This document shows positions 418 to 45,909 of a stretch of 64,000 nt of DNA, piece by piece; position 1 is the stretch's first letter, and every line of letters begins with the position of its first letter. Location: positions 120,255 to 184,254 of the forward strand of contig JAENZA010000001.1 in the NCBI GenBank assembly GCA_016841485.1. Reading direction: 5' to 3'. The translations under genes were made by a program, and so were the position numbers. This stretch comes from Methanobacteriota archaeon. GTDB taxonomy: Archaea; Halobacteriota; Methanomicrobia; Methanomicrobiales; Methanomicrobiaceae. Below the pieces are notes generated by a model. That model worked only from the letters and a program-made list of their open reading frames with translations. It did not search any database and was not told the DNA's origin.

Positions 418-738
418 ATGGGAATACGCAGAAGACGTCCGAAGAAGAATGGCATCGCACTGGAACGTATCGAAATTCTCTTCAGTTGCGCACAGAAGGA
501 ATTTGCCGTTCATCCGGAACTGAGTAAAGACTATGTCGAACGCGCACGCAGAATTGCAATGCGTGAGCGAATCCGCATCCCCAGGACGCTCAAACGTCAA
601 TATTGCAGGAAATGTTCCGCCTATCTCGTTCCCGGCATCAATGCGCGGGTCCGGATTCACAGGGGAAAAATCATCATAACATGCCGTGAATGTGGCAACC
701 AGTGGAGACATCCGGTGGTGAGGAATTATAGGAAATAA
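418..738 (+). CDS. rnp4: Ribonuclease P protein component 4 (Rpp21 family)
   Basis: Zinc-ribbon CRKCSAYLVPG...CRECGNQWRHPV; position in conserved archaeal cluster. Confidence 0.9.
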   Translation: MGIRRRRPKKNGIALERIEILFSCAQKEFAVHPELSKDYVERARRIAMRERIRIPRTLKRQYCRKCSAYLVPGINARVRIHRGKIIITCRECGNQWRHPVVRNYRK

Positions 739-967
739 ACATACTGAACAAAAAGAAGCAAGCCAACTGAAGGCGAGCGTCTGGATTGGAAAAAGCGGCT
801 TATCAGAACATACGATCGATGAAATATGCCGGCAGATACGTGACAACAGGATTGTCAAAGTCAAATGGCTCAGAAGTACTGAAGTGGAACCTGAGGAAGT
901 TGCCCATCTCTGCGCGGCACGCCTGATACAGGTGCGCGGAAGGACCATGGTCCTTGGACGCAGGTAA
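725..967 (+). CDS. YhbY/CRM-domain RNA-binding protein, apparent ATT (725) or ATA (728) start
   Basis: Manual translation: IGNKHTEQKEASQLKASVWIGKSGLSEHTIDEICRQIRDNRIVKVKWLRSTEVEPEEVAHLCAARLIQVRGRTMVLGRR*; absent from the ORF track because no ATG/GTG/TTG start exists; YhbY normally sits between rnp4 and S19e. Confidence 0.82.
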   Translation: MIGNKHTEQKEASQLKASVWIGKSGLSEHTIDEICRQIRDNRIVKVKWLRSTEVEPEEVAHLCAARLIQVRGRTMVLGRR

Positions 968-6643: not shown

Positions 6644-7225
6644 ATGAAACGATTTATTGTGATCGGCCACAAGGCCCTGACATCCGGAGATTTTTCCCTG
6701 AATGATATGCCAGGAAGCGCAGGGAGGATGGATGTCCTCTGTCGCTGCGTTAACTCCTCGCTATTTCTCTCCCACGATCTTCGCAGAGATGTGGAATGCT
6801 ATCTTGTTCTGCTCGGGGAACCGAATCCACCAAAGACCATCCTGTTCAGCGGCGAACGTGTGCGTTACCTGAATCCCGATGAACGAAGTGCAGGGTCGCT
6901 GATAAAAAAGGCCTTGGGTATAACCTGCAGCGATGAGTTTACCGAATCGACCAAAGGAGTCTATATTCGCAGGGGAGGTCTTGAACGGCTTCTCTCGGAA
7001 TTTCAGGTAGCCCTTCTCGATGAACACGGAGTGGACATCCGAACTACTGATGAACTCCCGGAAGCCTATCTTCTCTCTGATCACATGAATTTTTCAGAAG
7101 GGGAAGAGGATCTCATACGGGATGTACAAAAGGTATCGGTCGGCCCGAAAATTCTTCACGCGGACCATACGATCACCATCATGCTGAATGAAATGGACAG
7201 GAGGGAGAAACCATCGGAGTTATAG
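6644..7225 (+). CDS. trmY: tRNA (pseudouridine(54)-N(1))-methyltransferase
   Basis: MKRFIVIGHKALTSGDFSLNDMPGSAGRMDVLCRCVNSS...LSDH. Confidence 0.92.
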   Translation: MKRFIVIGHKALTSGDFSLNDMPGSAGRMDVLCRCVNSSLFLSHDLRRDVECYLVLLGEPNPPKTILFSGERVRYLNPDERSAGSLIKKALGITCSDEFTESTKGVYIRRGGLERLLSEFQVALLDEHGVDIRTTDELPEAYLLSDHMNFSEGEEDLIRDVQKVSVGPKILHADHTITIMLNEMDRREKPSEL

Positions 7226-8511
7226 AAGATGCCAGGAGAGTACTCGAATACGGCCCAATCTGCGATCATTGCCTTGGACGGTTTTTCGGGAAACGCTCCT
7301 TCGGAATTGCCAACAAACAACGGGGTGAGGGTCTTCGCACAGCACTTGCACTTGAAGATGACATCCCATACTCCCCTGAAAAAGGGGACTGCTGGATTTG
7401 CGGGAATATCTTTGACAATGTCGATGCATGGGCAGACAAAATTATCGATGCTCTCGAGGGAATCGAATACCGGACACTGCTTGTCGGATGCAGAGTTCCG
7501 CCGATGATGGCGGAAAGCGAGGAGATGGTTTGGAGCGATATTGGCCTGAAATCCCCCGAGCCCCTGAAGGCACAGTTCAACCGTGAAGTGGGAAAGATTG
7601 TCACTGCCCGCACAGGAACAGAGGTTGATTTCAAGCGACCGGACATTGTCGCAGTATGCAATATCGATGAGGATTCCGTGGAGGTAGAGATTAATCCTGT
7701 GTTCATCTACGGGAGGTATCGCAAGTTCCTCCGGGGAATTCCACAGACTCGCTGGCATTGCCGCGAATGCAGGGGGAAGGGATGTCCACGATGCAACTTC
7801 ACCGGAAAGATGTATGAAACGTCCGTTGAAGAGCTGATAGGCGCGCGTGTTGTGGAGGAATTTCAGGCAGAAGATGCGATACTCCACGGGGCCGGAAGGG
7901 AAGATATCGATGCAAGGATGCTTGGGACCGGAAGGCCCTTTGTACTTGAGGTCATGCATCCTTTGCGGCAGGGTATCTCTCTCGAGTATCTTGAAGAAGA
8001 AGTCAACCGGCACGCAGACGGAAAGGTCGCCGTCACCTTTGACCATCTCAGCAACAAGCGTGAGGTGGAAACCATTAAATCCGGAAAAGCTCATAAGAAA
8101 TACAGCATTCTGGTAGAAGTCGACGGCGAATTCTCCGTTAATGATATCAAATCATCCCTGAATACCCTGAAAGGTGCTCAAATTTCGCAGCGCACGCCTG
8201 AGAGGGTTTCGCATCGAAGGGCTGACAAGATACGCAAACGGTATGTCATCGACGTTGAGCTTGTGGATGTGGTTGACGGCAAATATGTGATCGAAGTTGT
8301 CGGCGATGCTGGCCTCTACATCAAAGAGCTCATCTCTGGTGACAACAAGAGAACAACACCAAGTCTTACGGAATGCCTCGGGGCACCAGCCCGGGTCGCC
8401 GCCCTGGACGTGATCAACGTTGAAGGGGTGGTTCCGGAGAAGAAGACCGAACAAATGGAGGATAAGGAAAATGGCACATCACAACGGCCCGAGAAAGAAG
8501 ACCAGGTATAA
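7213..8511 (+). CDS. pus10: tRNA pseudouridine synthase Pus10 (apparent ATC start)
   Basis: ORF-track protein starting at 7504 is N-truncated; same frame upstream reads IGVIEDARRVLEYGPICDHCLGRFFGKRSFGIANKQRGEGLRTALALEDDIPYSPEKGDCWICGNIFDNVDAW..., the Pus10 zinc/THUMP region; later MLGTGRPFVLEV, KYVIEVVGDAGLYIKELISGD. Confidence 0.92.
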   Translation: MGVIEDARRVLEYGPICDHCLGRFFGKRSFGIANKQRGEGLRTALALEDDIPYSPEKGDCWICGNIFDNVDAWADKIIDALEGIEYRTLLVGCRVPPMMAESEEMVWSDIGLKSPEPLKAQFNREVGKIVTARTGTEVDFKRPDIVAVCNIDEDSVEVEINPVFIYGRYRKFLRGIPQTRWHCRECRGKGCPRCNFTGKMYETSVEELIGARVVEEFQAEDAILHGAGREDIDARMLGTGRPFVLEVMHPLRQGISLEYLEEEVNRHADGKVAVTFDHLSNKREVETIKSGKAHKKYSILVEVDGEFSVNDIKSSLNTLKGAQISQRTPERVSHRRADKIRKRYVIDVELVDVVDGKYVIEVVGDAGLYIKELISGDNKRTTPSLTECLGAPARVAALDVINVEGVVPEKKTEQMEDKENGTSQRPEKEDQV

Positions 8512-43362: not shown

Positions 43363-45909
43363 TTACTGGTATTCTGGGAGGTTTACCTGCATCTGTGAAG
43401 GAAGGCCTCCCTTGAAATACTGCTGAATTCGGCGGTACTGTTCGCGGACACGTTCGTTCATCATCGGCCGCACTTTATTGAGCGCCTCTTCAAAATCCGC
43501 CACAGTCACAGAATTTCTACCTGAACGCATCGAAATCATGGCTGCCTCTCGACAGAGCAGATCCAAGTCTGACCCGACATAGGACGATGTACGCGACGCA
43601 ATATCTGAAAGGATACCTTCGCGTACCGGGTCCTCGAGTACAAGTGCATAATTGTCCAGAAGGCTTCTCAGGAGACGACGGCGACGGGTCCTGCTAAGAA
43701 GGTCCCCCGTAATACTCCGGTCATCAACATGGCAGGCGATGAGCGCTTCAACGCTAATTCGGGCTGGCTTCTCCGTCCCGGCTCTCTCCTTTACAAAATG
43801 TTCAAAGAGCGTTTCAAGGCCCGCCTCATCGAAGTCCTTCGTCTCTTCGACGAGGGTTTCCAGGGCCGAACCTTCAAGCGGAATGAACCGGGTATGAATG
43901 GCAAGGATCTCACGACGTGCGGATTCAGACGGTTCACTTATGGCGACAAGGCGGTCAAAGCGGCCGGCACGAAGAAGAGCCGGATCGATGATATCAGGGC
44001 GGTTGGTTGCAGCAACAATCACGACCCCCTTGGTCTCATCAATCCCGTCAAATTCAGTTAAAATCTGGTTGACAACGCTCTCGATGACATGGCTGTCTGA
44101 GCCCCCGCCACGTGCCGGGGCGATGGCATCAAGTTCATCAAAGAAAATAATGGAGGGAGCAACCTGCCGTGCCTTCCTGAATATTTCCCGGACAGCACGC
44201 TCACTCTCACCCACCCATTTTGACAGGAGCTGAGGCCCCCTTACCGGGATGAAATTCGCGCCGCTCTCTGTCGCTACCGCTTTTGCAATCAGGGTTTTTC
44301 CGGTCCCCGGCGGACCATAGAGAAGGACCCCGTGCGGGGGTTCTATACCCAGATTCTCAAATTGTTCCGGCTGGGTCAAGGGGTATTCCACCGCTTCACG
44401 AATCTCTTCCTTCTCCTGCACAAGTCCGCCAATATCGCTCCATTTGATATTCGGCACCTCAATAAGAACTTCACGCATCGCGCTCGGGCTGACATCACGG
44501 AGTGCGTCACGGAAATCACGCGAGGTCACCTCCAAAGACTCCATAATCTCTTCAGGAATCTCATCATTATCGAGGTCAATCTCCGGCAGATATCTCCGCA
44601 GGGACCGCATAGCGGCCTCACGTGCCAGCGCCTGTATATCTGCACCGACAAATCCATGCGTTTTGGAGGCCAGGAATTCAAGCAGCCGTTCCTGGTTGCC
44701 CTTGATCTCTTCTTCGACCGCACTCCGTTTCTGGGAGATTTCTTCCCGCCTCTCCTCTTCAGCCGCTTCCTCTTCCTTTCGTTCCTGTATCAGGCGGACT
44801 TCTCCCTCAAGCGGCATGCCCCGCGTGTGTATCTTCAGGATCTCAAGGCGGTCATGTTCGTCGGGAACACCAATCTCAATCTCACGATCAAAACGGCCGG
44901 GACGCCGGAGTGCCTGGTCTATTGCATCAAGGCGATTCGTGGCGCCAATGACCAGCACCTGACCACGTTCCTCCAGACCGTCCATCATGGTAAGAAGCTG
45001 GGCCACGACCCTGCGTTCAACCTCACCGGTGACATCCTCACGTTTCGGGGTGATCGAGTCGAGTTCGTCGATGAAGATGATCGCAGGTGCATTCTCCTCT
45101 GCTTCCTCGAAGATCTCGCGAAGACGCTGTTCGGATTCACCATAATATTTTGATATGACCTCAGGTCCGGCGATGGAGATGAAATGGGCACCACTTTCGT
45201 TTGCGACGGCCTTTGCGATGAGGGTTTTTCCGGTTCCCGGAGGTCCGAACAGGAGTACGCCCTTGGGAGGTTCAATCCCGAGTTTGCGGAAGAGTTCCGG
45301 GTGACGCATGGGAAGCTCAATCGTCTCCCGTACGTTCTGCAGTTCCCCTTTCAGTCCACCGATATCCTCATAGGATATCTTCCTGACTCCTTCGAATCCT
45401 TCGGCAGGCTTATCGGAGAACTCAATCTCCGTATCGGTGGTGATGATGACCGCTTCGGCGGGCTCGATCTCAACGACCTTGAAGGCAACCAGCTGCTGCT
45501 GCATAAAGGGAAGACCAGCGACAATGGGAATGGTGTCGTTTTTCATGGCAGGAAATCCGATGAGTTTGAGAGACGCCTGATTGTAATTGATTGGCATCTG
45601 CCGCGTCAGGTCCTCCGGGGGGGCAATGAGGACACGCTGCGCCTCCACCTCATCTTCCACCGGCCGAATCTCAATTCTGTCCCCAATGCTCACCCCGGCA
45701 TTGAGCCGGATGAAATTGTCGATCTTGATCTTTTCGTGCCCCCAGTCCCGGGACTGCATCCTCCAGACCTTTGCCACCGTCCTGCGCTGGCCTTCGAGAT
45801 AGACCAGGTCTCCCGGGACCAGCCGTAGTTGCTGCATGGTCGTAAGATCAAGCCTGCACCTTCCCATCCCCTGATCCTCCGGGTACGCACTATCTACTTT
45901 CAGATACAT
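43363..45909 (-). CDS. cdc48: Cdc48/VCP-like AAA+ ATPase (two AAA modules)
   Basis: Two Walker A motifs [18 protein letters not shown] and [18 protein letters not shown]; Walker [11 protein letters not shown] and [10 protein letters not shown]. Confidence 0.96.

Follow-up and report, generated by a model that had tools for sequence, protein, structure and literature searches.

The bacterial gene infC, which codes for IF3, starts at AUU, and this start codon is kept across relatives. More generally, AUU, AUC and AUA starts are known in bacteria and are discriminated against by IF3, for which its isolated C-terminal domain is sufficient (PMC4611024). For archaea, AUG, GUG and UUG are the sole start codons named in the consulted passages of a 2020 review of initiation (PMC7531240), and archaeal aIF1 has been reported to select against non-AUG codons (PMC6237735). 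A survey of 61,358 ancestral AUG starts counted a single change from AUG to AUU, a figure which depends on annotation (PMC5622118); a switch this rare indicates that AUH codons (AUA, AUC or AUU) are normally strongly disfavoured as starts. At overlapping genes of Haloferax, termination-reinitiation has been demonstrated, and it often depends on a Shine-Dalgarno (SD) sequence (PMC6728339). No report of an archaeal gene with recurrent AUH starts was found in the literature searched, most subscription journals being outside it.

The gene considered here, yhbY, lies in a window of 64,000 nucleotides (the whole stretch of DNA that was analysed, within which all coordinates are given) from a member of the Methanomicrobiaceae. 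Its reading frame is open from 722 to 967 on the forward strand, closed upstream by a TGA at 719–721 and ended by a TAA at 965–967. The codons following the TGA are GGA ATT ATA GGA AAT AAA CAT ACT GAA CAA AAA GAA GCA AGC CAA CTG AAG GCG AGC GTC TGG ATT GGA. No ATG, GTG or TTG (hereafter NTG) occurs upstream of the conserved core, the earliest being 54 codons in, and the list of open reading frames holds no NTG-started ORF of at least 40 amino acids in this frame. Reading the frame in this way bore out the original prediction, both on the missing canonical start and on the TGA before which the frame is not open. Translated from the start proposed below, the product is a CRM-domain (CRS1_YhbY) RNA-binding protein of 79 amino acids (728–967, forward strand; PF01985, E 5.1e-12). 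It scores 46.4 bits against Pfam PF01985, above the gathering score of 27, and 38.7 bits against NCBIfam TIGR00253 (the YhbY equivalog), below the curated cut-off of 78.5; it is a member of the CRM/YhbY-domain family and a relative of TIGR00253, not an equivalog. The best PDB matches of its AlphaFold model (pLDDT 91) are 1JO0 (E 1e-5, TM 0.81) and 1LN4 (TM 0.76), both YhbY. PF01985 is present in 214 of the 232 genomes of the order Methanomicrobiales. Two matches, on contigs C13 and C44, were seen in one incomplete genome (G061), and none in the 10 sampled genomes of a family of the same phylum (f13), an apparent loss. A TATA-box-like stretch, atatataaaagg, is located at about 1007–1020, between yhbY and rpS19e, and yhbY may therefore be the last gene of a formyltransferase-rnp4-yhbY transcript.

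Upstream, yhbY overlaps rnp4 (418–738, forward strand), which codes for RNase P protein component 4 of the Rpr2/Rpp21 family (PF04032, E 1.1e-19; NF003045 match). The SD sequence, GGTGA (717–721, forward strand), is found inside the rnp4 coding region, 6 nt before an ATA codon at 728–730, and its TGA doubles as the in-frame stop which closes the yhbY frame. This motif agrees with the SD consensus GGAGGTGATC and is complementary to the 16S 3′ end CACCTCC; GGATCACCTCCT was found in the source genome and, in the same-genus genome G002, was shown to lie at the 16S rRNA 3′ end. The rnp4 stop (736–738) is downstream of the proposed yhbY start, with an overlap of 11 nt (728–738). The SD sequence directly upstream and the overlap with the rnp4 stop had both been predicted, and both hold up. 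As for the start itself, ATT 725, ATA 728 and a CTG further in had been put forward, and only the ATA stands. Where the window reads GGA ATT ATA GGA, G002 reads GGA ACT ATA GGA; because G002 has ACT at 725 (a change which is synonymous in rnp4, AAT to AAC) and yet keeps the ATA, the start is placed at ATA 728 and ATT 725 is ruled out. ATA is also present in a further genome (G003), while other relatives have ATG, ATC, ATT or ATA at this codon, which is also where the frame of coding constraint switches.

The rnp4/yhbY junction was read in 132 genomes of the order, each start being assigned by inspecting the position of the codon and its SD sequence, and 10 ambiguous junctions were set aside. 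Aligned with these relatives, as the original prediction had proposed, the non-AUG codon proves to be conserved: the start is AUH in 35 genomes, from 10 genera (g1, g2, g4, g6, g11, g16, g17, g22, g23 and g25) and all 6 families, and NTG in 87. The AUH codon occupies the position of the ATG of relatives, and in 22 genomes (10 genera, 6 families) the stretch which begins at the in-frame stop and runs until four codons short of the core is devoid of NTG. An in-frame GGTGA is present in 52 relatives, and the codon at +3 from it is ATG in 17, ATC in 16, ATA in 10, and ATT, GTG and TTG in one each; it is another codon in 6, several of which have an ATG one codon on. AUH is thus found at codon +3 in 27/52 cases, compared to 11/468 over nine adjacent columns (p about 3e-22 by Fisher's test, genomes being taken as independent). 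Chance is excluded as the source of AUH behind GGTGA. An SD match of 5–6 nt precedes all 35 AUH starts, versus 49 of the 87 NTG starts (relatedness ignored), and the 6-nt spacing of GGTGA is kept in both AUH and ATG relatives. Of the genus g16 genomes, five have ATG and three have ATA, with identical SD sequence and spacing, the codon differing at its third base only. The position of the codon, its SD sequence and its AUN identity are conserved and its third base is free, which points to the AUH codon of yhbY as a real, long-kept start signal.

Outside the order, ATG is the codon in each of the 18 genomes read, and AUH is therefore likely to have arisen inside the order. A tree of rnp4 and yhbY has at least seven changes between AUH and NTG, a rough count given the poor resolution of the tree (54 of 128 inner branches open), and the direction of gain or loss rests on the outgroups. 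Canonical starts at the matching codon of relatives, together with clear decay in the window, had been considered as a sign against a non-AUG start; the former are indeed found, but the latter is not, since intact, constrained genes alternate between ATG and ATA/ATC/ATT. A few junctions are ambiguous because of a nearby ATG. At locus L072 (genome G196), GGTGA is followed by ATA ATA, and an ATG lying 8 codons ahead of the core has no strong SD sequence; at L015, L021 and L109 (genus g3), ATA or ATC is followed at once by ATG (ATA ATG), which looks like a start shift of one codon. In genus g6, a TTG that precedes GGAGG was also considered as a start and rejected, as it is TCG in G012 and TAG in G010.

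If the AUH codon is the true start, differences between related genomes should follow the rnp4 frame upstream of it and the yhbY frame downstream. Among the 11 genomes of f5g23, the pairwise differences at positions 1/2/3 of the yhbY frame are 0.073/0.256/0.085 over the 12 codons before AUH, which is the wobble of rnp4; they are 0 at the AUH codon itself, and 0.045/0.045/0.314 in the codons that immediately follow, still near the rnp4 overlap, which is the wobble of yhbY. A comparable shift occurs in g1 and g16 and, less clearly, in g6 and g17. Since the wobble moves from one frame to the other across the AUH codon, this codon marks a translation start.

The possibility that other genes behave in the same way was addressed by a census, in which stop-to-stop frames were compared between related genome pairs and those pairs dominated by third-position differences were kept (codon-position filter). 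This covered five clades and about 610 gene pairs (g1 183, g6 178, f5g23 69, g17 92 and f4g19 91). The only constrained genes without NTG were yhbY, in four AUH clades, and pus10, in g1 and g6; yhbY was one-sided in the g6 pair due to an unrelated upstream TTG in one of the two genomes. In f4g19, where yhbY has ATG, no AUH gene was accepted, and the listed candidates look like shadow frames. A LarC-like candidate (window position 45875) was set aside because it has an ATG at its likely N-terminus. The census gives a lower bound, since it would miss any AUH gene that has an NTG no more than about 12 codons away; genome-wide relaxed initiation by itself is rejected, as AUH appeared in yhbY and pus10 only across the five clades. 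The pus10 gene codes for a tRNA pseudouridine(54/55) synthase, of 432 amino acids if read from ATC (7213–8511, forward strand; TIGR01213, E 1e-161; PF21238, PF22023). It overlaps an open reading frame for a trmY-like, putative SAM-dependent RNA methyltransferase (6644–7225, forward strand; PF04013, E 2e-55). An SD sequence, AGGAGG (7199–7204, forward strand), precedes the candidate start codon ATC (7213–7215), and the first NTG is ATG 7504, 104 codons into the open frame. Among 29 genomes, ATC is found in 4/4 of g1 and g6, and elsewhere there is an ATG at this place or within a few codons; constraint likewise switches frame at the ATC codon. As far as can be read from sequence, pus10 independently repeats the AUH pattern of yhbY. 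TrmY methylates the pseudouridine made by Pus10, and the overlap of the two genes may link two steps in a single tRNA modification.

The reading which we prefer, and to which we give a probability of about 80% as a whole, is that yhbY is a live gene translated from AUA 728 by Met-tRNAi with the aid of a strong SD sequence and of coupling to rnp4, AUH being retained for a low, coupled output. The Met-tRNAi (anticodon CAU) would pair with the first two bases of AUA, and the mismatch in third position would be tolerated as the GGTGA, at its 6-nt spacing, anchors the 30S subunit. Ribosomes finishing rnp4 would be delivered to the AUA through the 11-nt overlap, by termination-reinitiation. AUU/AUA initiation, or coupled re-initiation from rnp4, had been suggested in the original prediction, and both fit the comparative data, from which we infer them. 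Two features accompany AUH, a strong SD sequence and the location of the start within the final part of the upstream gene. Given the discrimination of aIF1 against non-AUG codons, AUH should be weak, and coupling together with the SD sequence would compensate for it. AUH is kept in 11/11 f5g23 and 7/7 g6 genomes, one base change short of ATG, and this persistence across whole genera suggests that an output which is low or regulated is tolerated or favoured. Within the order AUH has repeatedly been kept or regained, most likely because a low, rnp4-coupled output of YhbY is sufficient or preferred.

A possible, if doubtful, alternative to retention for low output is neutral: strong SD sequences and coupling would let any AUN codon work, its third base drifting or being fixed by the codon of rnp4 that shares it. 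This shared base is indeed the first of an rnp4 codon (AGG for Arg in the window), and AUH and ATG alternate inside genus g16, both of which speak for this reading. However, the overlapping Rnp4 residue varies (Arg, Asn, Ser or Gln, as read from the junctions of relatives) and G is freely present in relatives, which makes overlap constraint alone the weaker reading. In addition, switches from AUG to AUU number 1 in 61,358 in bacteria and archaea together (PMC5622118), yet at least seven state changes are counted here, on a rough tree.

An autoregulatory circuit like that of infC, in which YhbY (with its likeness to the IF3 C-terminal domain) or another initiation factor would reject AUH, abundant YhbY repressing its own synthesis, seems to us unlikely. 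It is suggested by the next-best PDB matches of the YhbY model, which include the IF3 C-terminal domain (1TIG, among the best of those other than YhbY), and by a published similarity between YhbY, the IF3 C-terminal domain and Alba (PMC11621453); isolated, this IF3 domain rejects non-canonical initiation complexes in bacteria (PMC4611024). That yhbY is the recurrent AUH gene among the census pairs, and that its AUH persists in f5g23 and g6 with ATG one base away, would also suit such a circuit. On the other hand, the match to 1TIG is weak (E 0.02, TM 0.49), many close relatives use ATG for yhbY, and pus10, whose product has no such fold, uses AUC too. Members of the YhbY family are, moreover, associated with the large ribosomal subunit rather than with start selection. 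The parallel with infC, drawn from the predicted resemblance in fold alone, is attractive but unproven. Quite improbable is the further proposal that archaeal YhbY is a start-codon fidelity factor whose IF3-C-like domain, on the initiating ribosome, selects against AUH. Were it true, the AUH start of yhbY itself would complete a loop of negative feedback, and archaea would have an independent equivalent of the AUU circuit of IF3 and infC.

Production of YhbY as a fusion with Rnp4, by frameshift or by readthrough of TGA 719, is brought to mind by the overlapping frames and the in-frame TGA just upstream, but is rejected as highly improbable. No shared slippery site was found by eye, variation upstream of AUH tracks the rnp4 frame only, relatives have independent ATG ORFs beginning at this codon, and other clades have either different stop codons closing the frame upstream or an open frame that holds no NTG. 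Just as improbable is initiation at the in-frame CTG adjoining the core (767–769): CUG is known as a minor start codon, with two AUG-to-CUG switches in the above survey (PMC5622118), but AUH relatives show CTG, CTA, TTA, CTC or ATC at this position and coding constraint reaches upstream of 767, and this codon was rejected as it is unconserved. A sequencing error, which had been named as the alternative, or a pseudogene might be suspected in a draft of 288 contigs, but is excluded by the recurrence of the pattern in independent assemblies, among them the single-contig G012, G115, G116 and G051, and by the 89% identity of yhbY to the G002 copy, with differences mostly in third position.

With an AUA start at 728, yhbY would be one gene alternating between AUG and AUA, AUC or AUU across an order, some genomes of which are single-contig, and would offer a natural substrate for studying start-codon discrimination in archaea, with natural AUG controls. 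Gene finders limited to NTG would miss yhbY, and would begin pus10 at ATG 7504 with a loss of about 97 residues. Compared to the described systems, the product shares its domain and fold with the CRM-domain proteins YhbY of E. coli and HI1333 of H. influenzae, but is a short archaeal form, under the cut-off of TIGR00253. As in described archaeal and bacterial termination-reinitiation pairs, the downstream start and its SD sequence are contained in the 3′ part of the upstream gene, the start lying close to the upstream stop, and translation of yhbY would depend on that of rnp4; the described pairs have mainly overlaps of 1 or 4 nt and ordinary starts (PMC6728339), whereas rnp4/yhbY has an 11-nt overlap and an AUH start. 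With AUN-start genes such as infC, yhbY shares the absence of NTG, an AUN codon at SD distance that is kept across relatives, and a product whose predicted fold resembles the IF3 C-terminal domain. It differs from infC in being archaeal, in coding for a CRM protein instead of IF3, in alternating between AUA, AUC, AUU and AUG, and in that the likeness is known from sequence and predicted fold.
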